A stretch of DNA of 15,467 bases from Myxococcota bacterium. Lineage in GTDB: Bacteria > Myxococcota_C > UBA6777. How positions within the stretch are numbered: the first letter of the stretch is position 1; every line of letters starts with the position of its first letter. The translations under genes were made by a program, and so were the position numbers. Below are positions 2,733 through 15,320 of this stretch, in pieces. Location of the stretch: assembly GCA_023150835.1 (NCBI GenBank), contig JAKLKB010000150.1, forward strand, positions 1 to 15,467, given 5' to 3'. The notes beneath the pieces were generated by a model. It was not told where the DNA came from, searched no databases, and saw only the letters and a list, made by a program, of their open reading frames with translations.

Positions 2733-4757
2733 ATGGCTGCAACAGATCCGCTAATCGGAAAAGAATTCAAGTTTTACCGCATCGTCGATAAGATTGGTGG
2801 TGGTGCGTTCGGGGCGGTCTATCGAGCAGAACACACCCGCGTTCCAAAGCCTTTTGCGATCAAAATTCTCCATCCTCATATCGCTTCAGACGAGTTGATC
2901 GTCGGTCGTTTTGAGCGCGAAGCGCGCACTCTTGCAACGCTGAACCACCCGAATATCGTGCAGTTGGTCGACTTTGACCGCGACGATGAAGTCGGCCTCT
3001 ACCTTGTGATGGAATGGCTGCGCGGCGCTTCGATGAAGCAGATCATCCAAAAAAAGAAGCGTCTGCCCTTGGATGTCACTTGCGAATTTTTCCAGCATTT
3101 GTTGTCTGGCCTTCAAGAAGCCCATGAACATGGGATTGTTCACCGCGATCTCAAACCCGCCAACTTGATGATCATCCCCGCAGGAGGACACCAGATCCTC
3201 AAGATCCTTGACTTTGGTGTTGCTTCGCTCAGCAGCGATGATCGCGATCTCACGATGGTTGGGGCCGCGATGGGAAGCGCCAACTACATGTCTCCCGAAC
3301 AAGCGATGGGTAATATCAAAGAGGTCGATAACCGCTCCGATCTGTATTCTTGTGGTGTGATCCTTGGTCATTGCTTGACAGGCAAGCGCGTATTTTTGGG
3401 CGATACCCCAACACAAACTTTGATGAAGCACATCCACGAAACACCCCGATCTCTACATGAGATGTGTCCCGAAGAAGAATTCTCTCCACAGATCGAGGCC
3501 GTCTTTGCGCGCTCTCTCGCTAAGCGAAAAGAAGATCGTTACCAAAACGCCCGCGAATTTCTGGACGCCGTCGTCGACGCCTCCAAAGCTATTGCAGGGG
3601 GACGTCCTCGGCGGGGTGGACCTCCAAGTGTCACCGGCATCTTTCAGATGCCCACACAAACGGGAACCTTTCAAGCCCCCAATATGACGGGCACGTTTAT
3701 GCCTCCCCCTCAGTTTTCTTCTTCACCTGCGGCTTCTTATCCTCCTGCAACTCATTCAACAGGTTCTTTTACTCCCTTGCCACAAGGCGGAAGCAGCAGC
3801 GGAAACGTCGCCGCTGCGCCTCGTCCACCCACAACCCGCCCGCATACAGGCTCGTTTGCAGGGCTGCCCGACCCCTTGGCAGGTTCTTTTCGCCCCACTC
3901 CTTTGCCTCACTCTCCTGCCTCTGGAAGCCCGCCTATCGCGGGTTTTCGCTCTACCTACGATCATTTTCCTGCACAATCCGCCCCGTCCGCTCCTTCTTT
4001 TTCAAGCGACGAACAAGATGCGCTGTTTTCCGACTTACAATCACCCCATCCCCCACGTTCGCAGACGTATCCTCACACGGGAGCGGCTCCTTCTTTTTCC
4101 TCGGGAAGTGCAGGCGGAGGCATGAGCATTTCTGAGATGCGGATGGCACGTGAGCAGATGGACAACGAACGCGCTGCCGCACCCAAGTACGCCCGCGAAG
4201 TTCTTTCTTTGCCCACACCTGTCGCCGCACAAGTCGGAGCCGATCTGCTTGCGGATGCGCCACAACGCGAACCCACCCGCGCTCGTCGCGATTGGCGCGC
4301 TCAAGACTTCTCCGTCCAAACGCAGCCCCCCTCCGAAGGACCTTGGGAACGCATCGAGCGCATCCTCGACAAGCACTTGCGTGAATTGATTCTCGCTGTG
4401 GTGCTGGTTGCTGTCGTTGGCTTGGGCTTGTTGGCTTGGCGCTTGTCATCGCCTCGAAAAGTCGAACCCCAAAAAACCAACTCGCATATGCTCACCCCCC
4501 AGATCTTGCCCGAACCGATCCCCACTCCCCGCTCACGCCAACAGCTTTTCCCGCGACGGGATGAACCCAAACCCGCCGCCAAGACCCCACAACCAGCCAA
4601 AATCACCGATCCCAAAACCACCGATCCCAAAACCGCCGATCCCAAAACCACCGATCCCAAAACCACCGATCCCAACAAATCGGCTCCCCCAAGCCGTGAT
4701 TCGGGTGATTCCACACAACCTTCCCCTCCCACAAATCCCCCCACACAACCTCGCTAA
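2733..4757 (+). CDS. Transmembrane Ser/Thr protein kinase (kinase 1)
   Basis: The product is 674 residues. The kinase domain spans about 14-285 with all expected elements: glycine loop IGGGAFGAVY (21-30), ATP lysine K44, helix-C glutamate E63, HRDLKPAN with catalytic D139, DFG 160-162, SPE 187-189 and DLYSCGV near 203. It is a Hanks-type (Pkn/PknB-like) kinase, predicted active. Residues about 290-545 are a Pro/Ser/Thr-rich linker with six TGxF-like motifs between 301 and 386. Residues 552-572 are one transmembrane helix. The 100-residue tail should be outside the cytoplasmic membrane and carries five TDPKT-type repeats (625-649). No PASTA or other known sensor domain is present. The start has GAAGGAG twelve bases upstream. 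It is divergent from the DUF3887-like gene, and the cysteine-rich lipoprotein follows 76 bases downstream, probably on the same transcript. Confidence 0.95.
   Translation: MAATDPLIGKEFKFYRIVDKIGGGAFGAVYRAEHTRVPKPFAIKILHPHIASDELIVGRFEREARTLATLNHPNIVQLVDFDRDDEVGLYLVMEWLRGASMKQIIQKKKRLPLDVTCEFFQHLLSGLQEAHEHGIVHRDLKPANLMIIPAGGHQILKILDFGVASLSSDDRDLTMVGAAMGSANYMSPEQAMGNIKEVDNRSDLYSCGVILGHCLTGKRVFLGDTPTQTLMKHIHETPRSLHEMCPEEEFSPQIEAVFARSLAKRKEDRYQNAREFLDAVVDASKAIAGGRPRRGGPPSVTGIFQMPTQTGTFQAPNMTGTFMPPPQFSSSPAASYPPATHSTGSFTPLPQGGSSSGNVAAAPRPPTTRPHTGSFAGLPDPLAGSFRPTPLPHSPASGSPPIAGFRSTYDHFPAQSAPSAPSFSSDEQDALFSDLQSPHPPRSQTYPHTGAAPSFSSGSAGGGMSISEMRMAREQMDNERAAAPKYAREVLSLPTPVAAQVGADLLADAPQREPTRARRDWRAQDFSVQTQPPSEGPWERIERILDKHLRELILAVVLVAVVGLGLLAWRLSSPRKVEPQKTNSHMLTPQILPEPIPTPRSRQQLFPRRDEPKPAAKTPQPAKITDPKTTDPKTADPKTTDPKTTDPNKSAPPSRDSGDSTQPSPPTNPPTQPR
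4605..4679 (+). repeat. 15-bp tandem repeat, five units, inside kinase 1
   Basis: Five consecutive 15-bp units of the type ACCGATCCCAAAACC encode TDPKT, TDPKT, ADPKT, TDPKT and TDPNK in the extracytoplasmic tail of kinase 1. The unit length is a multiple of three and holds no stop in any frame. That explains several long shadow frames here. Changes in copy number would lengthen or shorten the tail without a frameshift. Confidence 0.9.
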
Positions 4758-6363: not shown

Positions 6364-6366
6364 AAG

Positions 6367-6456
6367 GCACCCTCACCCCGTCGCTGTGCGCCACCCCTCT
6401 CCCTGCGGCGCTCGCAAAGCCTCGCTGCTGCCGCGAGGAGAAAACCGAGGGGGAGC
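6367..6456. repeat. Probable dispersed GC-rich intergenic repeat
   Basis: This sequence fills most of the 108 bases between two convergent genes. It has pyrimidine blocks on one side (CACCCTCACCCCG, CCACCCCTCTCCC) and purine blocks on the other (GCGAGGAG, CCGAGGGGGAGCC), so it can fold back on itself imperfectly. The composition and word pattern resemble repeats that recur between genes in many bacterial genomes. Only one copy lies in this window, so the repeat status is inferred. It may also end transcription from both sides. Confidence 0.45.
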
Positions 6457-6471
6457 CGAATGGAGCCACGT

Positions 6472-8001
6472 TCAGCGAGGCGGAACTTTTGACATATTTC
6501 TAGGTTGGAGATCGATGGGGTGTTTGAGGCGGTGGATCTGGACGGTGTTGGGGAGAGGGGCGCGTCGGATGATGTATCCTTCGGGGATCTTGCGGAATTG
6601 ATGGATGGTTGGCGCGGGGGCTTTGGGGATCTTGGGGGCTTGGGGGAGAGGAACGTTGCGCGGGAGGGGTTGAGCGGCGGGGAGCGCGTGCGTGGGGACG
6701 GGGCGCGGTGCAGGGGCGAGTAGATCGCGGGTGGAGAATCGAAGTGTTCCAAAACGAGCGAGGTTGTGGTAATCGCCGCCGATGCCGGTGGTCACTGGAC
6801 TCCAAGCGTGATCTTCGTTGGCGCTGTGGCGTGAGCGTTCGAGGCGGTACATGTTGATCGACCATTCGTCCCCGTCGATCGGGGGAAGGTTGCGTGCAGG
6901 ACCCAGCCGTTCAAAGGGCAGCCGCATCTCGACACTCCATCCTTGATCGCGGTCGCTGCGTTGGTTCAGGGTTCCGCGCACATCGACGGCGACGGTCATC
7001 CCGCTGTCATAGGCCAGCCGGCCCCACGGACGGGGAGATCGGTACGTATCAAAAAAGGAATCGAAGATCATCCCTGCGGGAGAGACTTGGAGTTCGATGT
7101 AGTCGCGGCGATTGCGGTTGGCGTCGATATAAAACTCGACGACTTCTTGCTGAAACAACGGATCATCGCGGCGTTTGTACGTGCTAAAGATATCGTCGTC
7201 ATCCATATCAAATGCGATATAAAGATGACGCGCATCCCAAGCGACTTTGGCTTCGGTGCGTTTTTGAGCGGCTCGGTTGTTGTAAGTCCGAAACCGCCCT
7301 GTCGAGGGGGCTTTTTGCCACACAGGATCGTTGAGTTTTCCGTCTATCACGGGTGGGACGCTGGTGCGATAAGCGACGTAGATCGGTCGTTCTAGCTCTT
7401 GGCCGGCCAACAAGATCGGGCCTACCGCAACGCGATTTTGTCCGTCGGTCGGGACATTCGCGGCTGCGGTCATTCGAGCATCGCCGTTCCAAAAGCCCGT
7501 CATCAGGTAGGCTTGGTTGTTGGGCAGATCGGCAGGGCAAGTAAAGCGAAACGTGTAACCGAAGAACTTGCCGACTTGCCAATTGCGGCTGTGATACAGC
7601 CGTGCGGTCGGATCTTGCGCTTCGTCGAGGTTGGTAAAGGCACCGCGTGGGCCGCGATCACCTTGAAGATGGAGGAAGGTTCGCCACAACAGCTTCATTT
7701 GACGCAAGGGCTTGTAGTACAGCGTCACTTCTGCGGCTTCGCCTCGTCGCATCGGCCAAGGCTTGATATCGGCCCCGTATAGCACCACTGCAGGGCCTTG
7801 CCCGGGTTCGGTGAGTGTGGCGTTGAGCAACAAGCGCGGCTTGGGGGTTCCTTGGAGCAAGATCTGTTGGACGGCTTTGGCTTCTCTTGCGTTGAGTTTG
7901 CGATCGACGTAGCGCTTGGGACTGGGGCTTTGATCGATACAGCCCCACGTTGTGAGTAGGAGCGCTCCAAAGATGCCGAAGCATCGCGCAAATGGCTTCA
8001 T
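6472..8001 (-). CDS. Lipoprotein with a CBM9-like carbohydrate-binding domain
   Basis: The product is 509 residues. Residues 1-20 form a signal peptide, followed by a lipobox-like TWGC with C21 as the lipid site. Residues about 55-200 look like a beta-sandwich (RGEAAEVTLYYKP, then a HLQGD strand and a W-x-VGK turn). Residues about 220-430 match the family 9-like carbohydrate-binding fold: PPVIDGKLNDPVW, KVAWDARHLYIAFDMDD, EVVEFYIDANRN, IELQVSPAG and WSVEMRLPFERLG. The last 75 residues are Pro-rich. CBM9-like domains bind sugars, and in this arrangement without an enzyme domain they are common on cell surfaces; the ligand is not known. The start codon overlaps the stop of the preceding gene (ATGA at 8001-7998), and GGAGA lies ten bases upstream, so translation is probably coupled to it. 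The stop lies 108 bases from the convergent lipoprotein gene. Confidence 0.85.
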   Translation of the reverse strand: MKPFARCFGIFGALLLTTWGCIDQSPSPKRYVDRKLNAREAKAVQQILLQGTPKPRLLLNATLTEPGQGPAVVLYGADIKPWPMRRGEAAEVTLYYKPLRQMKLLWRTFLHLQGDRGPRGAFTNLDEAQDPTARLYHSRNWQVGKFFGYTFRFTCPADLPNNQAYLMTGFWNGDARMTAAANVPTDGQNRVAVGPILLAGQELERPIYVAYRTSVPPVIDGKLNDPVWQKAPSTGRFRTYNNRAAQKRTEAKVAWDARHLYIAFDMDDDDIFSTYKRRDDPLFQQEVVEFYIDANRNRRDYIELQVSPAGMIFDSFFDTYRSPRPWGRLAYDSGMTVAVDVRGTLNQRSDRDQGWSVEMRLPFERLGPARNLPPIDGDEWSINMYRLERSRHSANEDHAWSPVTTGIGGDYHNLARFGTLRFSTRDLLAPAPRPVPTHALPAAQPLPRNVPLPQAPKIPKAPAPTIHQFRKIPEGYIIRRAPLPNTVQIHRLKHPIDLQPRNMSKVPPR

Positions 8002-8576
8002 CGTGTCTGTTTCTCCTCGGTCTGTCTTTTTTGGGCTTCGAGTTCAAGGCGTTTTTGATCGATGATCTGTTGAAAACGATAGGAACATCCGTTGTCTGCG
8101 GGGCGATCGACGCTGATCAACTCGACCGTTTTGGGATCGATCGGGAACGTGCGGCAGGGCAACGGACGAGATTTGTGTACGCTACAATACGAGTTCTTGG
8201 TTTCTTTGTCTGTGCGCAAAAAAGGACATCGCCAGAGGATCTCGCAGCAAGCGCCACAATGCGCACACTCGCCTTGTCTCCATGCTTCGTGGCGCGTGAC
8301 ATAGGCCCGATCAAAGAAGCTGCGCCATGTGTTGTTCAATTTGATGCGGTAATGGCGGGTGCGACGACCGATGCCTTTGATATCCCACAACATCACCATC
8401 CAGTACAGCGCGCCCACAAAGACCACAAACCACAGCGAAACAAGTCCCTTGGAGTAGTGTACGATCTCCGAGGCCAGCGTTTTCTTTTGCTCTTGCGTTG
8501 CTTCCGAAGCGGGCGATGGCGCGCTCTCGTGTGCGGTAGAGGGTTGAGGAGAAGATGATTTTTCTTGACCGTCCAT
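7998..8576 (-). CDS. YkgJ-type CxxCxxCC cluster protein with a membrane helix
   Basis: From the ATG at 8576 the product is 192 residues. Residues 1-35 are Ser/Pro/Glu-rich, about 44-65 form one hydrophobic helix, and the conserved cluster follows: CAHCGACC (C104, C107, C110, C111), then C117, YCSVHKSRPLPCRTFP (C131, C141) and C164. That is the UPF0153/YkgJ signature, a predicted iron or zinc site whose biochemical role is not established. The tail is a charged helix. The start is uncertain. AAAGGAG lies 13 bases before 8576 and a second purine run is nearer, while in-frame starts at 8639 (ATG) and 8663 (GTG) have no good site; the ORF is open to 8663. The stop overlaps the start of the CBM9-like lipoprotein by ATGA. 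rlmE lies upstream on the same strand. A redox or metal-linked role at the membrane is possible but unproven. Confidence 0.85.
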   Translation of the reverse strand: MDGQEKSSSPQPSTAHESAPSPASEATQEQKKTLASEIVHYSKGLVSLWFVVFVGALYWMVMLWDIKGIGRRTRHYRIKLNNTWRSFFDRAYVTRHEAWRQGECAHCGACCEILWRCPFLRTDKETKNSYCSVHKSRPLPCRTFPIDPKTVELISVDRPADNGCSYRFQQIIDQKRLELEAQKRQTEEKQTR

Positions 8577-8683
8577 AGTTGCTCTTTCGCTCCTTTGCGT
8601 GATCTCTTCTGGTGATGGACCTTTTTGCAAGTCGGCCATTATGCCCAGAACCCAAACAGACACAAGCCTTTTGTGTGCGTTGT

Positions 8684-8719
8684 GGTTGGGTGCAACCTAT
8701 CCTTCGCGCTGTGGCGCGA
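8684..8719. other. Two small hairpins in the rlmE to YkgJ-type gene spacer
   Basis: GGTTG/CAACC (8684-8697, four-base loop) and TCGCGC/GCGCGA (8704-8719, four-base loop) sit in the spacer after the rlmE stop. The second has a perfect six-pair GC-rich stem. Neither is followed by a T run on the minus strand, so a processing or weak termination role is only a guess. Confidence 0.3.
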
Positions 8720-8781
8720 TGGGTTCGCACCCTCCGATATCGCCGCGATTTGGTCTTCTTCGCTGTTTACCTTGTCGGGAG

Positions 8782-9495
8782 TCAGGAGAGCGGATCATAG
8801 GGGGCGTGGGTGTTCTTGGCTACAGCGGAGGACGCATCTTCGGGCGTTGCATCTGTGGATATGTCGCCCTCTTGCGGGCTTTCGGGGGCTTGTACAAGCG
8901 GCGTGCCGCGAAACTGGGTGGCGATGACGTAGACCTCAGAAGAGGTTTTTCGTGTGGCTTCGGGGCGGGTGGTTCGGACTTTTTTGAAAAGGTTTTTGGT
9001 GGCAAAGAGAAAGTTATCGATGTCGTCACCCGGAAAGATCTTGACCACCATTGAGCCACCCGGCAACAACATCTTTTGCGCGATCTGTAGGGCGATTAGA
9101 GCGAGTTCATACGAGCGTGCGCAGTCGGTGACGCGGATCCCTGAGATGTTGGGAGCCATATCGGAGAGGACTGTATGCGCCTTGCCTTCGAGCGCGTCCA
9201 TCGCTTGTTTTTGCACCGTTTCATCCAAAAGATCGCCTTGCAAAAGCGTGATCTGGCGATACGGTAGCGGGTCGATGGGAAGCAGATCGATCCCAACGAT
9301 CCTTCCCGAAGGACCGACGATCTCGGCTGCGATCTGCAACCAGCCGCCCGGAGCTGCCCCAAGGTCCAACACCCGCCCTCCCTTTGGGAAGATCTGAAAG
9401 CGCTTGTGGAGTTCTTCGAGTTTGTAGGCTGCACGAGAACGCAACCCCTCTTCTTTGGCTTGCTTGTAAAAGTGATCTTTTCGATGAAAGGCCAT
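8782..9495 (-). CDS. rlmE: 23S rRNA (uridine-2'-O)-methyltransferase RlmE (FtsJ/RrmJ)
   Basis: The product is 237 residues. It transfers a methyl group from S-adenosylmethionine to the 2'-OH of the A-loop uridine of 23S rRNA (U2552 in E. coli) late in 50S assembly. The N-terminus DHFYKQAKEEGLRSRAAYKL is the family signature, and LDLGAAPGGW (43-52) is the SAM site. The catalytic K-D-K-E set is present as K25, D112 (SDMAPNISG), K152 (VVKIFPGDD) and E187 (SSEVYVIA). The ATG at 9495 fits the family N-terminus; the open frame continues to 9594, but that extension has no family similarity. The ribosome site is weak (GGAAAG). Residues about 197-237 form an acidic Ser/Thr/Pro-rich tail beyond the usual end of about 209 residues. 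The two downstream genes may be on the same transcript, 205 bases away. Confidence 0.95.
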   Translation of the reverse strand: MAFHRKDHFYKQAKEEGLRSRAAYKLEELHKRFQIFPKGGRVLDLGAAPGGWLQIAAEIVGPSGRIVGIDLLPIDPLPYRQITLLQGDLLDETVQKQAMDALEGKAHTVLSDMAPNISGIRVTDCARSYELALIALQIAQKMLLPGGSMVVKIFPGDDIDNFLFATKNLFKKVRTTRPEATRKTSSEVYVIATQFRGTPLVQAPESPQEGDISTDATPEDASSAVAKNTHAPYDPLS

Positions 9496-9592
9496 CGGTC
9501 TTGTCTTTCCGTGATTTGTGGTGTTCCGTGTTTTGAGGTCGGCGCGGTTGGCGGGCGTGTTCTCTTTTGAACGGATAGAGGTCTCGCCGCAC

Positions 9593-9620
9593 AAGATACA
9601 GAATCACTCGATTTTTACAA
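9593..9620 (-). promoter_or_regulatory. Candidate promoter for rlmE
   Basis: Minus-strand TTGTAA (9620-9615), a 16-base spacer and TATCTT (9598-9593), each 4/6 to the sigma70 consensus. It would give a leader of roughly 90 bases. Pattern match only. Confidence 0.28.
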
Positions 9621-9671
9621 GCAAAACTGCTCCCCTGTCTTGCCCATGTCTCAAAGATCAGAAAGGGTGGC

Positions 9672-9699
9672 TTGCAAGGAGACGCTCTATCGCTATATT
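9672..9699 (+). promoter_or_regulatory. Candidate promoter for the subtilisin gene
   Basis: TTGCAA at 9672-9677 and TATATT at 9694-9699 with a 16-base spacer, in the most A/T-rich part of the divergent gap 9496-9793. The leader to the ATG at 9794 would be about 88 bases. The rest of that gap shows no gene. Confidence 0.33.
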
Positions 9700-9793
9700 G
9701 CACATTCCAAAAACAAAGTTCATTTTCTTTTGCGCTGAAACACAAGGTAAAGAATCTTTTCTTTGGGTTCCAAACCGCAAGACGGAGGGTCGG

Positions 9794-10771
9794 ATGTTTG
9801 GTTGGTTACGACGGCTTTTTGGTGGCGCAAAGTCACAAGAGCAAGAGCTTCGCGGGATGTTGCCTCCCTTTCAAGTCGAAGCGATCTCTCGCGAAGAGGT
9901 CAAGGAGATCATCGACTGGGGACTCCAATCGCTCGGCATCCCCGATATATGGAAGATCACACAAGGCGAAGGCATCAAGGTGGCGATCTTGGATACAGGC
10001 GTCGCCACGACGCACCCCGATCTCAAAGATCGCGTGATCGCTACCAAAGATTTTACCAACGACGGCATCGAAGACGCCAACGGACACGGCACACATTGCG
10101 GTGGGATCGTGGCCGCAAGTCAAAATGATCTCGGGGTGGTGGGCGTTGCACCCAAAGCCCAATTAATTATTGGCAAAGTCCTCAACGACGGTGGATACGG
10201 AACGCTCGAATGGATCGCTGCGGGGATGGAATGGGCCGTCGAAGCAGGGGCCGATATCATCTCGATGAGCCTCGGCGCATCCACAGGTTCGGAGCGCCTC
10301 AAACAAGCCACCCAAAAAGTCATCGACCAAGGAAAGATCTTGATCGTTGCCGCTGGAAACTCTGGCGAAGGCGCAGACACCATCAAGTTCCCGGGCGGTT
10401 ATCCCGACGTGATCTGTGTGGGTTCGATCAACCGCGAGATGCGGCGCTCTTCTTTTTCTTCGACAGGGCGCAACCTCAGCATCATGGCCCCCGGTGAAAG
10501 CATCTTGTCGTGTTATCCGCCTGATCAATATGCTCGGCTGTCTGGAACGTCGATGGCAACACCTTTTGTTGCAGGTGTCGCCGCTTTGATCTTGTCCAAA
10601 CACCGCACGCATGGCGGAAAAACACCTTGCGAAAATCAAAAGCAGATGTACGAACACTTGACCAAAGTGGCGGTGGATGCTGAAGATCCCGGCTGGGATA
10701 AGAATACAGGTTGGGGGATCGTCAACCCGAAAAAAAGTATCGAAGAAAAGCACGCCCATCCAAAGCCCTAG
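9794..10771 (+). CDS. Intracellular-type subtilisin (peptidase family S8)
   Basis: The product is 325 residues. The catalytic triad is D67 (AILDTGV), H98 (NGHGTH) and S253 (SGTSMATPFVAG), with oxyanion N189 (AAGNSG). The protein resembles Bacillus intracellular subtilisins in the order and spacing of motifs. Like them it has no signal peptide and only a short N-terminal extension; LPPF at 23-26 sits where their inhibitory LIPY propeptide motif lies. Residues 1-12 (MFGWLRRLFGGA) could form a small amphipathic basic helix. The ATG at 9794 has GGAGG five bases upstream, and the frame upstream of it shows no protein-like sequence. Expected role: cytoplasmic serine endopeptidase for protein turnover or regulated cleavage. 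It is divergent from rlmE and convergent with kinase 2. Its last codons overlap a short direct repeat. The protease call is firm; localisation is inferred from the absence of a signal. Confidence 0.92.
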   Translation: MFGWLRRLFGGAKSQEQELRGMLPPFQVEAISREEVKEIIDWGLQSLGIPDIWKITQGEGIKVAILDTGVATTHPDLKDRVIATKDFTNDGIEDANGHGTHCGGIVAASQNDLGVVGVAPKAQLIIGKVLNDGGYGTLEWIAAGMEWAVEAGADIISMSLGASTGSERLKQATQKVIDQGKILIVAAGNSGEGADTIKFPGGYPDVICVGSINREMRRSSFSSTGRNLSIMAPGESILSCYPPDQYARLSGTSMATPFVAGVAALILSKHRTHGGKTPCENQKQMYEHLTKVAVDAEDPGWDKNTGWGIVNPKKSIEEKHAHPKP

Positions 10772-10836
10772 CGTGTTTGCAAAACATTCGCCCGCATCAG
10801 ACAACATACGCCCATCCAAAGTCTTCGCGTGTTCGC
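10752..10836. repeat. Imperfect 29-bp direct repeat, two copies 56 bp apart
   Basis: Copies at 10752-10780 and 10808-10836 share an identical 14-base start (ACGCCCATCCAAAG) and differ at about five of the other bases. The first copy encodes the last residues of the subtilisin (HPKP-stop) and runs past its stop. The second lies in the gap before the convergent kinase 2 stop. It looks like a local duplication of the 3' end of the gene. Confidence 0.6.
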
Positions 10837-10842
10837 AGCACG

Positions 10843-12978
10843 TTAACTTGCGCCGGACGCCAAAGCCCGCTGGAGCATCACACGGATACGCTGGCCTACC
10901 CGAAACGCTTGTTCTGCCGAAGCCTCCCCATCCATCGCCACCACCAACATCCAACGCTGCTCTTGTGGGGCGTAGTAAAACGAGAAATCTTCTTGTCGAT
11001 GCAGCCCTTCCACAACAAATTCCAGTCCTCGTGTGCCATCGCTTGGAGTATGCAGATCGTGAAATGCACGAAGCATCAATCGAAACTGCAAAAAGCCTGT
11101 GTATCCGCTGTTTGTTGCGTGGTTAACCTTCCACGACTGAGCTTCCAGATCGTACAAGCCGATCCCGTGTACTTCCTGAAATGTCCTCTGCATCCGCGTA
11201 AAAAAATCTACCCAAGAAAAAGACGATCGAGGCAAGTGGGCTTGTTTTATCGGCGTCGGCGTAGAAAACAAACGCCCTTTGACTTGGGGAGCCTCCTCAG
11301 CGGAGCGCCCTTTGACTCGCGAAACCTCCTCAAAGGAGCGCCCTTTGACCTGTGAAACCTCCTCAAAGGAGCGCCCTTTGACCTGTGAAACCTCCTCAAA
11401 GGAGCGCCCTTTGACCTGTGAAACCTCCTCAACTGAACGTCCCTTGGCTCGGGGTGCCTCCTCGAACGAGCGCTCTTTGAGACGGGGAACTTCCTCAAAC
11501 GAATATTCCTTTGTTTTCGCCTGAGCGGTCCGGTGAGGGTGGGCTTGTGCGTACACCAACGGTTTTTCGTGGCGTGGGGTAGCGTGCGGATGCCAAGAGG
11601 TTTCTTGCGTGGAATGAGGCGGTTCTGTTGTGTGGCGTGGGGCGGGGGTTTGCGCTGCAAACAAAGACAGATCCGCTGGGGTATGTTTGTGAAACGACGA
11701 AGGCGCGGTGGAGCGGCGATCGGTGGCCTCATCGCGTGGGGGACGCTCGGAGCGCGTGGACTGTGCGTGGAGCCAGTCGGATGCGTTGGGGTGGGCTTGT
11801 GGGGGGGTGGGGGCCTCTGGATGAAGCGGCAGATCGGCTTCTGACAAAGCGCGTTGGAAAGCCTCGAATGATCGAGGGGTGGAGTTTTGAGGAGGCAGAC
11901 GCGCCAAGTCAGAAGGCTTGGGCAAGACAGCGATCGGTTCGGATTGATGACCATTTTGTGGCCTTGGTGTAGGCGCTTCGGGGTGCAATGGGAGTCCAAG
12001 AAAATCTTCGGATTCTTCCAAGTCTTCCCATGCGTTTGGCCTTGCTTGGAGGTCAAGGGCAGCGGCTTCGTCAGGGGTGTTCAGCGTCGGAAGATCCTCG
12101 TGGGTGATCATGCCGTATTGCAAAAACGATCCGAGCAAGGTGCTCCAAAAAGTCCAGACATCCGCAGGGCGGTGCGATGGGGACTTTTCAAGCGCCCACA
12201 ACAGCACACGTTCGATCTCTGGCATGGATTGAAAGATCGGGGCAAATTCCCTTGGCAGCGGCGGTGGAACGTGTACATGGCCCGCCATAATGCTGTAGAT
12301 GCTGTCGCCTTGGAAAGGGGTAAAGCCCGTCAATGCCTCAAAAAGGATCACGCCCAAGGCGTAGATATCACTGGCAGGGCCGATGTTTGGTAGATTTTGC
12401 GCTTGTTCGGGCGACATATACAACGGTGTACCCAACGCATAAGGCTCGATTTCTTGTTTTCTTGGCATTTGAAAAAGATGGGCGATGCCAAAATCTAACA
12501 ACAAGGCTTGGGCTTGGCCTGTTGGGGAATTGGGTTCGGATGCAACCAAAACATTCGCAGGTTTCAGATCGCGGTGGACGATACCTAGTTGATGTAAGTA
12601 AGAGAGCGCATCCACAATACCCGTCACGATCGGCACCAACTGCTTGATGGATGAAAAGCACGAGCTTTTTAACCAGTCGCGTAAACTCGGCCCTTCAGCC
12701 CAAGCCGTGATGAAAAAAGGCCGATCTTCTTTGAGATAGCCTCGATCCAGAAAACGTAAGATATGGGGGTGGTGAAGGCGTTGAAGCAGATTGGATTCTT
12801 CTTCAAAACGCTCTCTCCAGTGCATCGATTGGTTTTTTTCTTCGTTCAATACTTTGATCGCAACAGGCCGCTGGCTTTGGCGCTCGACCCCCCGATACAC
12901 CGAAGACATCGCGCTGTCGTAGATCTTCTCTAAACAAATCCAGCGCTCTCCCAACACTTTTCCTTGTGTTGCTTGCAT
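10843..12978 (-). CDS. Soluble Ser/Thr protein kinase with degenerate glycine loop (kinase 2)
   Basis: From the ATG at 12978 the product is 711 residues. The kinase domain is about 10-285: ATP lysine K42, helix-C E61, HRDLKPAN with D137, DFG 162-164, GTPLYMSPEQ (183-192) and DIYALGV (204-210). The glycine loop reads IYDSAMSSVY (19-28) where IGxGxxGxVY is expected, so all three glycines are replaced. Residues about 295-490 are Pro/His/Ser-rich and include LPLHPEAPTP twice (329-338, 383-392). Residues 493-569 are seven 11-residue repeats of the SFEEVSQVKGR type. Residues 588-708 form a folded domain with helix-strand-strand-helix-three strands-helix order, as in Roadblock/LC7 proteins. No transmembrane helix is seen. 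An earlier in-frame GTG at 13092 is possible, but its extension is basic and unlike a kinase N-terminus; the chosen ATG has AGGTGG close upstream. It lies downstream of the acyltransferase gene on the same strand. Confidence 0.92.
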   Translation of the reverse strand: MQATQGKVLGERWICLEKIYDSAMSSVYRGVERQSQRPVAIKVLNEEKNQSMHWRERFEEESNLLQRLHHPHILRFLDRGYLKEDRPFFITAWAEGPSLRDWLKSSCFSSIKQLVPIVTGIVDALSYLHQLGIVHRDLKPANVLVASEPNSPTGQAQALLLDFGIAHLFQMPRKQEIEPYALGTPLYMSPEQAQNLPNIGPASDIYALGVILFEALTGFTPFQGDSIYSIMAGHVHVPPPLPREFAPIFQSMPEIERVLLWALEKSPSHRPADVWTFWSTLLGSFLQYGMITHEDLPTLNTPDEAAALDLQARPNAWEDLEESEDFLGLPLHPEAPTPRPQNGHQSEPIAVLPKPSDLARLPPQNSTPRSFEAFQRALSEADLPLHPEAPTPPQAHPNASDWLHAQSTRSERPPRDEATDRRSTAPSSFHKHTPADLSLFAAQTPAPRHTTEPPHSTQETSWHPHATPRHEKPLVYAQAHPHRTAQAKTKEYSFEEVPRLKERSFEEAPRAKGRSVEEVSQVKGRSFEEVSQVKGRSFEEVSQVKGRSFEEVSRVKGRSAEEAPQVKGRLFSTPTPIKQAHLPRSSFSWVDFFTRMQRTFQEVHGIGLYDLEAQSWKVNHATNSGYTGFLQFRLMLRAFHDLHTPSDGTRGLEFVVEGLHRQEDFSFYYAPQEQRWMLVVAMDGEASAEQAFRVGQRIRVMLQRALASGAS
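11272..11502 (-). repeat. 33-bp tandem repeat, seven units, inside kinase 2
   Basis: Seven 33-bp units encode 11-residue repeats S-F-E-E-V-S-Q-V-K-G-R and variants. The central units are almost identical at the DNA level and the outer ones diverge, the usual pattern when a minisatellite grows from its middle. Gain or loss of units keeps the frame. On the opposite strand the block is also free of stops, which creates a shadow frame at 11279-11524. Confidence 0.92.
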
Positions 12979-13177
12979 CGACCACCTGCCTTTCGCTCGC
13001 CCGCTGTGCGGCGCGCACCTCGGCCCAAAAAGAAGCGAGGCTTTAGCGCGCTGCGATGCGCTGACCTTTGCCTTCTTTGCCGTTCCCGCCACATCAAAAC
13101 ATCTTCCTGTTTAGATCGAAACGGAAAGTGCGCCGACTTCTTGAGTGTGTGGCAAAAAAACGGTGGTGTGGTGTGGA

Positions 13178-14176
13178 TTAGAGGAAGGATTCTCCCGCGT
13201 GGAGGGGGCGTTCGAGCAGCTTGGTGGAAGGGAAAAGCTGTTGGGCAAACTGTGTTGCTTTGTCGAGTAGGCGTGTGGCGGCATCGCGCAGGGGACGGGG
13301 GTCTTCTTCTTCTTGAAGCTGATCAAGCAACGCCTGCATCTGTTCGCGTGTATGCTGATCGATCTTTTCGATCAACGCATCATCGGGAGTTTCGCGCCAC
13401 GTCTTGCGCGGCATCTCGATCAGGTTGCCGATCTTGTAGCGAAGTTTGGTCGGTGGAGGCAGTTGAGGCAACGGGCCGATCGAAAGTCCCCACGGGAAAC
13501 ACAGGTAGATCGGGAAGATCTGCGCACGGATCAATCTGGGCAAGCCCATTTTTTCGGCGATGCGTTTGCCCGACGAAAGCACGATCAACGTCTCGTGCGC
13601 TCCCGCGTGTGCGATCGGTCGGATCGGTGCGCCAGATTCCAGCGCAAGCCGCGTATAGCCCTTGCGCCCCGCAAAGTTCACTTTGTAGCGATCCTTGTAT
13701 GGCCGAAAGGTATCGACATCTCCCCCCGGATACAACAACAGATCACGTTGTTCGTCGCGCAAGATCCGAAGCCCCATCTCAAAGTCTGCTCTTAAACCCC
13801 CAAGGCGCGCCAAGCGCTGCGCAAGCGCAGGCAGCGAAAACACCGCATCATGCGCAAGCATGTGGATCGGTCGCGACAGCGACAGATGTCCATACCACGC
13901 AGTCACCCATCCCCACGCATCCAACGTCAACAATCCCCCCGAATGGTTCGATATCGTCAACGCATGGCTTGGCTCTTGTTCGAGCTTTTCCCACCCATCG
14001 ACTTGCAGATCAAAATAACGCCCCGGCCCAAATAGTTTGGAGGTCTTTTCTAACGTGCTTTGCACAAAACGCCCGTCAAAATGCGCGGGATCGTGCCCCC
14101 ATGTCCCTTCCGTCCCTGCCAACTTCTGGCAAAAGGACACAAAAGACGATGTTTGATTTGCTTTGCGCTGCGCCAT
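13178..14176 (-). CDS. Lysophospholipid acyltransferase-like protein (PlsC superfamily, NHSGG type)
   Basis: The product is 332 residues. The acceptor motif is ISNHSGGLLTLD (75-86), an H-x7-D variant of the H-x4-D catalytic motif, and the second motif is LYPGGDVDTFRP (148-159) in place of FPEG. These are the marks of the LPLAT branch that includes MGAT/DGAT-like and bacterial phospholipid or glycolipid acyltransferases. Members move an acyl group from acyl-CoA or acyl-ACP to a lipid acceptor at the inner membrane; the exact acceptor cannot be told. A hydrophobic stretch near 216-235 may touch the membrane. Residues 255-332 are a charged helical tail. The ATG at 14176 has GTGGAGG eight bases upstream; the open frame upstream of it is basic and Cys-rich and is rejected. 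A perfect hairpin lies just before the ribosome site. Kinase 2 follows 199 bases downstream; that gap holds no gene. Confidence 0.88.
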   Translation of the reverse strand: MAQRKANQTSSFVSFCQKLAGTEGTWGHDPAHFDGRFVQSTLEKTSKLFGPGRYFDLQVDGWEKLEQEPSHALTISNHSGGLLTLDAWGWVTAWYGHLSLSRPIHMLAHDAVFSLPALAQRLARLGGLRADFEMGLRILRDEQRDLLLYPGGDVDTFRPYKDRYKVNFAGRKGYTRLALESGAPIRPIAHAGAHETLIVLSSGKRIAEKMGLPRLIRAQIFPIYLCFPWGLSIGPLPQLPPPTKLRYKIGNLIEMPRKTWRETPDDALIEKIDQHTREQMQALLDQLQEEEDPRPLRDAATRLLDKATQFAQQLFPSTKLLERPLHAGESFL

Positions 14177-14196
14177 CTTTTGGCCTCCACTGTACA

Positions 14197-14215
14197 GGCA
14201 ACGCTTGCCGTTGCC
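14197..14215 (-). other. Leader hairpin next to the acyltransferase ribosome site
   Basis: GGCAACG and CGTTGCC form a perfect seven-pair stem with a five-base loop. On the minus-strand transcript it ends 20 bases before the start codon and a few bases before GTGGAGG. It could influence ribosome access or be a chance palindrome. The surrounding gap 14177-14450 holds no gene. Confidence 0.4.
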
Positions 14216-14346
14216 GTCTTTTCCACGCCGACAACACCCACAGTTGCCGCCTTTTCGATCACACCGCCTGATCCGCCTGTGCAAATAACCTCGAACATCG
14301 CTCGTTTTCGCGGCTGCGTTGTGATCGTCCTTTCACCAATGTGGCT

Positions 14347-14355
14347 CTTATAGCA
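14347..14355 (-). promoter_or_regulatory. Candidate extended -10 box for the acyltransferase gene
   Basis: The minus strand reads TGCTATAAG here, a TGn extended -10 box with 5/6 match. No matching -35 box is seen at normal spacing. The leader would be about 165 bases and would contain the 14197-14215 hairpin. Weak evidence. Confidence 0.22.
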
Positions 14356-14450
14356 CAGTGTCGCAAAAAAGAAACTGTCATTTTTCTGTCACCCCTGTTT
14401 TTCCCCTTCCTGCCTGCCCCCACAAGCCCCCGCATCGGTGTTGTTTTTTT

Positions 14451-15218
14451 TCACGGACAGCCTTCATCGACTTTGCCGTCGCAATTGTTGTCGAGTCCGT
14501 CGCAGATCTCAGGGCCTTTGCTGAAGGACAGACATTCGAGTATGCCTTTGGCGCTGTTGCAACTAAGCTTTCCGCTCGCGCACACCCCGGGGAGTCCCGT
14601 AATGCAGTTTTGTCCCTGTTGTGGGATATCTTCGTCGACTTTGCCGTCGCAATCGTTGTCTTGGCCGTCGCACTTTTCGGGCTGTGGCTGTCGTTCGTTG
14701 GCACAAGCGCCCCATTGACCGCCTTCACAGGTCTGTACGCCGTCTCGGCAAGCCCCGATCCGTTGGGTCTGGATCGGCCCTGTATAACAGGGCTTTTGCG
14801 CTCCGTTTGTGCAGACAGGCGGCGGAGGTTCGGGCATCGGTTCGCTCGCAGAGTCGGGCTGGATGGTTTCGATACTTTTTTCGGCGGCTGGTTCAGGCGT
14901 CACTTCCTCGGTGGATTCGGGTGTTGGTTCGGTCGTTGGCTCTGATCCGTCTTGGGCGGTGTGTTCGGTTTTTGCTTCGGAGGTCGTTTCGGTGGCTTCG
15001 TCTGTTCCTTCGGAGGGGAGGGTGTCTTTTTGGATCTCCGCGCTTGGCTCGGTCGGATCGCTTGCGTCGGAGATCTCACAACGGCCTGCGATGCACTTCG
15101 CAGGAGCGGTGCATTGGGCGTCTTGTTGGCATACCAGCGGATCATTGCACGTGCAACGACTCGACCCCACCCCCACAAACAACAAACAAATCCACCACAA
15201 ACGACAAATGCGATCCAT
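14451..15218 (-). CDS. Secreted MopE-like protein with two CDGxDNxCDGxVDE motifs
   Basis: The product is 255 residues. Residues about 5-20 are a hydrophobic export signal followed by SSRC; the arginine before C22 makes it a poor lipobox, so lipidation is uncertain. Residues 22-50 hold a small Cys-rich segment (C30, C36, C42, C47). Residues 52-134 are a flexible Thr/Glu/Pro/Ser linker. Residues 136-255 resemble MopE-type repeats: CYTGP, GACRDGVQTC, GGQWGACANE, then CDGQDNDCDGKVDED (183-197) and CDGLDNNCDGKVDEG (239-253). The Asp/Asn-rich loops are predicted metal-binding sites, named after the Methylococcus copper-binding protein MopE. The protein ends right after the second motif with no sorting tail. 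The ATG at 15218 has AAAGGAG with eight bases between. Its stop lies 274 bases before the acyltransferase start. Location outside the cytoplasmic membrane is likely; metal identity is unknown. Confidence 0.9.
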   Translation of the reverse strand: MDRICRLWWICLLFVGVGSSRCTCNDPLVCQQDAQCTAPAKCIAGRCEISDASDPTEPSAEIQKDTLPSEGTDEATETTSEAKTEHTAQDGSEPTTEPTPESTEEVTPEPAAEKSIETIQPDSASEPMPEPPPPVCTNGAQKPCYTGPIQTQRIGACRDGVQTCEGGQWGACANERQPQPEKCDGQDNDCDGKVDEDIPQQGQNCITGLPGVCASGKLSCNSAKGILECLSFSKGPEICDGLDNNCDGKVDEGCP

Positions 15219-15246
15219 CTTTTTTTCTCCTTTAACGCGGCTTGGT

Positions 15247-15306
15247 GGGGGCTTCTTTTGTAGGGGCTTCTTTTGTGGGGGCTTCTTTTGTGGGGGCTTC
15301 TTTTGT
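15247..15306. repeat. 15-bp tandem repeat, four units, upstream of the MopE-like gene
   Basis: Four units of GGGGGCTTCTTTTGT (the second begins with A). On the minus strand they read ACAAAAGAAGCCCCC, which would encode TKEAP in a short frame that ends in TAA just inside the AAAGGAG of the MopE-like gene. That frame has an ATG at 15323-15321 but no ribosome site, so I do not call it a gene. The repeat lies in the leader or promoter region, where copy number would alter spacing. Confidence 0.85.
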
Positions 15307-15320
15307 GGGGCGCTGCCCCA
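15306..15320. other. Short GC-rich hairpin adjoining the 15-bp repeat
   Basis: TGGGGC, a GCT loop and GCCCCA form a perfect six-pair stem at the edge of the tandem repeat, upstream of the MopE-like gene. No T run follows on either strand. Confidence 0.4.

Follow-up and report, generated by a model that had tools for sequence, protein, structure and literature searches.

A PknB-like protein kinase of a Myxococcota bacterium with a glycine-free nucleotide loop

The 15,467-bp window analysed here corresponds to contig C93 in the draft genome (G000; 7.56 Mb, 239 contigs) of a Myxococcota bacterium. Among its genes is one for a protein kinase, kinase 2, which joins an N-terminal kinase domain to a repeat linker that is probably disordered and to a C-terminal domain modelled with a roadblock/LC7-like fold (Table 1). 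Kinase 2 is the only gene of a 2.4-kb accessory segment: window positions 6472-10765 and 13169-15179 align, at 93-94% DNA identity, to G001:C490:4009-8305 and 8328-10334, the flanks of kinase 2 being adjacent in this sister species and just the 2.4 kb between them missing. The G+C content of the segment is that of its surroundings (0.543), a search for a mobile element at the borders of kinase 2 showed that the 190-bp stretch past the start codon is single-copy in the genome, and inspection of the segment junctions by eye revealed no repeats; the difference between the two species could represent either a gain in one lineage or a loss in the other. The reverse case occurs at window positions 6364-6471, where the sister species carries about 2.46 kb (L191 1551-4008) that are absent from the source genome and contain one 748-codon open frame with a signal-like start and repeated modules of the GGGWTL type that recall fibrinogen-like domains. 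Elsewhere in the window there are two short 15-bp tandem repeats, one at 4597-4675, giving PKTTD units in kinase 1's C-terminal tail, and one at 15245-15310, past the last open reading frame (ORF) and apparently intergenic.

Table 1. Features of the kinase 2 locus, with positions in the window
Feature	Position	Strand	Evidence or remark
Accessory segment, kinase 2 only, 2.4 kb	10766..13168	.	absent from sister species G001
Kinase 2 CDS, 711 aa	10843..12978	-	ATG 12978, stop 10843; translation; Pfam Pkinase 3.6e-42
Shine-Dalgarno-like AGGTGG	12982-12987		few bases ahead of ATG
Hanks-type (PknB-like) kinase domain, residues 1-285	12124..12978	-	PknB match, AlphaFold, Foldseek
Glycine-free nucleotide loop IYDSAMSSVY, residues 19-28	12895..12924	-	direct reading
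VAIK lysine K42	12853..12855	-	kept; invariant in homologues
Alpha-C glutamate E61	12796..12798	-	kept; invariant in homologues
Gatekeeper T91	12706..12708	-	Met in 85% of homologues
Catalytic aspartate D137 of HRD	12568..12570	-	kept; invariant in homologues
DFG motif, residues 162-164	12487..12495	-	kept
E176-I-E178, activation loop	12445..12453	-	positions of PknB T171 and T173; ungapped register to GTPxYMSPE
SPE motif, residues 189-191	12406..12414	-	PE invariant in homologue alignment
Linker, 33-bp (11-residue, KGRSFEEVSQV) tandem repeats	11266..11499	-	Tandem Repeats Finder
C-terminal roadblock/LC7-like domain (modelled), residues 583-711	10846..11232	-	AlphaFold, Foldseek, VIA-align

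The initial annotation held that kinase 2 had lost all glycines of its ATP loop, and direct reading inside the intact 711-codon ORF confirms this: the loop codons are ATC TAC GAC AGC GCG ATG TCT TCG GTG TAT. Return to glycine codons at the three canonical positions would take at least five substitutions, and none of the other reading frames restores a glycine loop; a frame shift or a base error at this site was rejected on these grounds. A sequencing or assembly error in the contig could be suspected because the source is a draft assembly in 239 contigs, but the need for at least five substitutions and the lack of a rescuing frame argue against it, as does the fact that five residues of the loop (Y20, M24, S25, S26 and V27) recur in a paralogue on another contig; we consider such an error very improbable.

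To place the loop among its relatives, it was compared with about 138 kinase loops of the source genome, namely those in fetched and readable loci among more than 150 kinase matches. Three canonical glycines are found in 67 of these loops, two in 50, one in 18 and none in 3, and kinase 2 is the only kinase among them without any glycine in the ten-residue loop. The two others that lack all three canonical glycines (LNQRGMSQVY and LKRTGMAEVW) each still show Gly as the fifth loop residue; these kinases, at L135 and L157 (G000:C183, G000:C232), keep the other key catalytic residues. The statement that active relatives read IGxGxxGxVY was thus too strong, since the full GxGxxG is present in only about half of the loops of the genome and the third glycine is commonly replaced by Ala or Ser, PknB itself, like kinase 2, having Ser at this position (GFGGMS in GFGGMSEVH). 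Among 74 aligned homologues the first glycine is present in 65 and the third in 49; the second (position 22), close to universal in bacterial kinases, is Gly in all 74 and Ser in kinase 2. The real anomaly of the kinase 2 loop is therefore the loss of the second glycine.

Apart from the loop, kinase 2 has the full catalytic set of a Hanks-type Ser/Thr kinase, comprising K42, E61, D137 of HRD, K139, N142, D162-F163-G164, SPE 189-191, D204 (helix F Asp) and R270 (helix I Arg), and its match to the Pfam Pkinase profile (145 bits) is far above the cut-off of 31.7. Membership of the Hanks-type family rests on these features and not on the glycine-rich loop GxGxxG, which is common but not universal in the family and lacking here, because about half of the kinases of the genome are also without the full triad. 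The kinase 2 domain is identical to its homologues at 23 of 23 non-loop positions with at least 97% conservation in the 74-sequence alignment. The claim that every other catalytic residue is kept accordingly holds for the catalytic residues themselves, but not for the conserved activation-loop Thr (E176 in kinase 2) or the gatekeeper (T91). All three catalytic-triad residues whose loss marks pseudokinases (Lys, HRD Asp, DFG Asp) are present, and VAIK in a bacterial genome stands in place of the FIKK motif of apicomplexan kinases.

The closest solved relative of the kinase domain is Mycobacterium tuberculosis PknB (E 2e-32). The AlphaFold model of the domain (pLDDT 90, pTM 0.89), in which the beta1-loop-beta2 region is ordinary, has PknB and PknA as its best Foldseek matches (best E 2.5e-22) and gives residues 1-285 a kinase fold with high confidence. 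Unlike kinase 2, PknB has kept the first two glycines as well as the activation-loop Thr residues, has a PASTA/transmembrane architecture and lacks a roadblock domain; the PASTA kinase (PknB/Stk1 equivalog) profile NCBIfam NF033483 matched kinase 2 through the kinase part only, at 204 bits against a cut-off of 450. Matches to PADLOC PD-T4-6 also span the kinase domain and were taken as generic kinase similarity.

In all genomes searched, the kinases nearest to kinase 2 are a tandem pair on contig C111 of the same genome (L039 5145-9447), with 39-40% identity. Their loops are intermediate (ISAGGMAYVY and VYTGGMSSVF), both retaining G22 and G23, and the second is the one that has Y20, M24, S25, S26 and V27 in common with kinase 2, so part of the loop change may predate the split, and G22S with G23A is specific to kinase 2. 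A tree of 277 kinase domains, from which the loop columns were left out, groups the three kinases in a clade with support of 94, in which the glycine loop appears to have eroded in steps; the terminal branch of kinase 2 is long (rank 28 of 277). The searchable set represents the phylum by five genomes, and no orthologue was detected in the other four. Scanning GTDB with kinase 2 peptides for close relatives gave no orthologue, and a scan with the three-paralogue alignment yielded generic kinases only (28-38% identity). In G001 the neighbouring gene of the tandem pair has an orthologue (C360), next to which the pair itself was not found. The suggestion of a distinct subfamily thus stands in so far as kinase 2 groups with two paralogues, but complete glycine loss is confined to kinase 2; conversely, homologues with more normal glycines, which had been named as evidence for a local oddity, do exist in the C111 pair and make the loop partly that. 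The small family is known so far from one genome, and kinase 2 is its extreme member.

Loss of the loop glycines might mark early decay: the gene would be an accessory copy that is not essential and is under relaxed selection, whose loop has drifted and whose other motifs survive by chance or because the decay is recent. The absence of the gene from the sister species, the lack of a detected orthologue and the long terminal branch would fit such a history, but the ORF is intact over 711 codons, with a coding-like GC by codon position and a ribosome-binding site, and the 23 conserved positions have all been kept at 41% identity, an outcome with a probability of about 0.41^23 had these sites been unconstrained after kinase 2 and its nearest paralogue diverged. 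Conservation of every catalytic residue at this identity suggests that catalysis or Mg-ATP binding was selected for much of the time since that split. We consider early decay improbable, and the view of the initial annotation that the gene is not decayed is supported by the intact ORF, its codon composition and the complete catalytic set.

The activation loop of kinase 2 is also unusual. Glu occupies both positions that are autophosphorylated in PknB; among 256 kinases, a single further one has acidic residues at the two sites. The position of E176 is Thr in 93% of homologues, and the C111 paralogues combine Thr with Ala or Ser. Full activity of PknB needs phosphorylation of T171/T173, and changing both Thr residues compromises activity (PMC6428115). 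A small gatekeeper residue, as in kinase 2, is uncommon (13 of 281 kinases). Across 251 kinases, activation-loop Thr is lost in 3 of 5 that have lost the second glycine, against 50 of 246 others (Fisher p 0.065), a link that is suggestive only.

The C-terminal domain produced no Pfam match, Robl_LC7 included; a profile of the paralogue domains scored it at the level of shuffled sequences, and hhalign gave a non-significant E of 0.019. Its AlphaFold model (pLDDT 80, pTM 0.75), built from an alignment that included the paralogues' domain rows, has the predicted elements H7-17 E21-28 E33-39 H43-61 E76-79 E83-90 E94-101 H106-127, that is, the helix, two strands, helix, three strands and helix of the roadblock fold. 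Foldseek matched the model to MglC (7ct3, E 2.1e-5, the best match), MglB and Ragulator subunits, with VIA-align Z of 10-12 for these matches. On the modelled fold alone, we assign the domain provisionally to the roadblock/LC7 fold of MglB and MglC. These two proteins are stand-alone GTPase regulators, whereas the kinase 2 domain is fused, divergent in sequence and below Pfam detection. The C-terminal domains of the C111 paralogues have relatives in a stand-alone ORF (G000:C35, G001:C498) and in a fusion of another genome, G004 (L285 610-1878), where the roadblock-like domain is the C-terminal part of a response regulator that also matches DUF4388 (PATAN-like) weakly. The source genome also encodes an MglA/MglB-like pair, in which one gene has a Pfam Robl_LC7 match and its neighbour reads, from a sequence motif and not a profile search, as an MglA-type GTPase.

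Taken together, these observations lead us to favour a divergent, weak or non-canonical, ATP-binding kinase with an autophosphorylation-independent activation loop over a pseudokinase scaffold, early decay or error, and we would give this interpretation an even chance of being right. Kinase 2 would then belong to a small subfamily of Hanks-type, PknB-like Ser/Thr kinases (kinase domain, repeat linker, roadblock/LC7-like domain) in which the glycine loop was eroded stepwise and, in kinase 2, became glycine-free. Most likely the protein still binds Mg-ATP, the phosphates of which would be held by K42-E61, by N142 and D162 with its metal ions, by K139 and by backbone amides of S22-A23-M24-S25; ATP affinity or turnover would be below usual. 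E176 and E178 may provide an active shape without need of autophosphorylation, and expression, together with dimerisation or localisation via the roadblock domain, would control output, proteins of the MglA/MglB type encoded by the genome being possible partners; the ATP binding, the low activity, the autophosphorylation independence and these partners are what we infer. The confident kinase model, the intermediate paralogue loops, the uncommon small gatekeeper, the Glu-Glu pair, the roadblock-like fold and the MglA/MglB-like pair count in favour of this interpretation. Counting against it are the invariance of the second glycine in the homologues, the glycine that is most needed in PKA, where its changes lower ATP affinity (PMC4718504), and the long terminal branch, which fits relaxed constraint, no orthologue being at hand for a selection test.

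The main competitor, to which we give a lower but still substantial probability, is a pseudokinase scaffold without productive ATP binding, which would take an active-like shape through the Glu-Glu loop and K42-E61 and would bind or allosterically activate partners, for example the sister roadblock kinases via roadblock heterodimers. Loss of an otherwise invariant glycine and the replacement of a phosphorylated Thr by Glu are both in line with this possibility; VRK3 is a precedent for an active-shaped pseudokinase and, like some other degenerate-loop proteins, does not bind nucleotide (PMC4718504), and the bacterial pseudokinase EssB/YukC is reported with a degraded loop (PMC12599244). However, HRD, N142, DFG and all other catalytic residues are kept in kinase 2, whereas among the pseudokinases that, like it, have a degraded glycine-rich loop (PMC4718504, PMC12599244), VRK3 and EssB/YukC are also without catalytic motifs and the DFG of ILK is altered. 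Nucleotide binding is not predictable from sequence alone (PMC4718504).

The FIKK kinases of Apicomplexa provide a functional analogy to the favoured ATP-binding kinase, which would work as the active FIKKs of the malaria parasites (Plasmodium) do. FIKKs lack the glycine triad and keep the other key residues (PMC526369), and activity has been demonstrated for at least 14 of them, most with a small gatekeeper (PMC12137140). Such active triad-less kinases (FIKK, PMC12137140), together with the Glu-Glu activation loop, make the earlier proposal of altered nucleotide binding, or of a slow or regulated kinase, reasonable and plausible. FIKKs are nonetheless eukaryotic, belong to a different family and mostly retain one or two glycines, which also weighs against the favoured interpretation; the likeness would be convergent only. 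A stronger version, in which kinase 2 is an independent bacterial counterpart of the FIKK solution, a glycine-free active kinase with a small gatekeeper and a Glu-locked loop that is targeted by its roadblock domain to a small-GTPase polarity module, seems to us rather unlikely.

The three paralogues form a natural series from partial to complete glycine loss in which the other catalytic residues are constant, a ready-made test of the need for the glycine loop that bears on ATP binding, on phosphotransfer and on how bacterial pseudokinases begin, and the Glu-Glu activation loop makes the clear prediction that activity is independent of autophosphorylation. If simply inactive, kinase 2 would just add another pseudokinase to a genome that is very rich in kinases. 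The kinomes of this small phylum are very large, with at least 153 Pkinase matches in the source genome (7.6 Mb) and, on a first look, about 156-253 candidate kinases in each of the other four.
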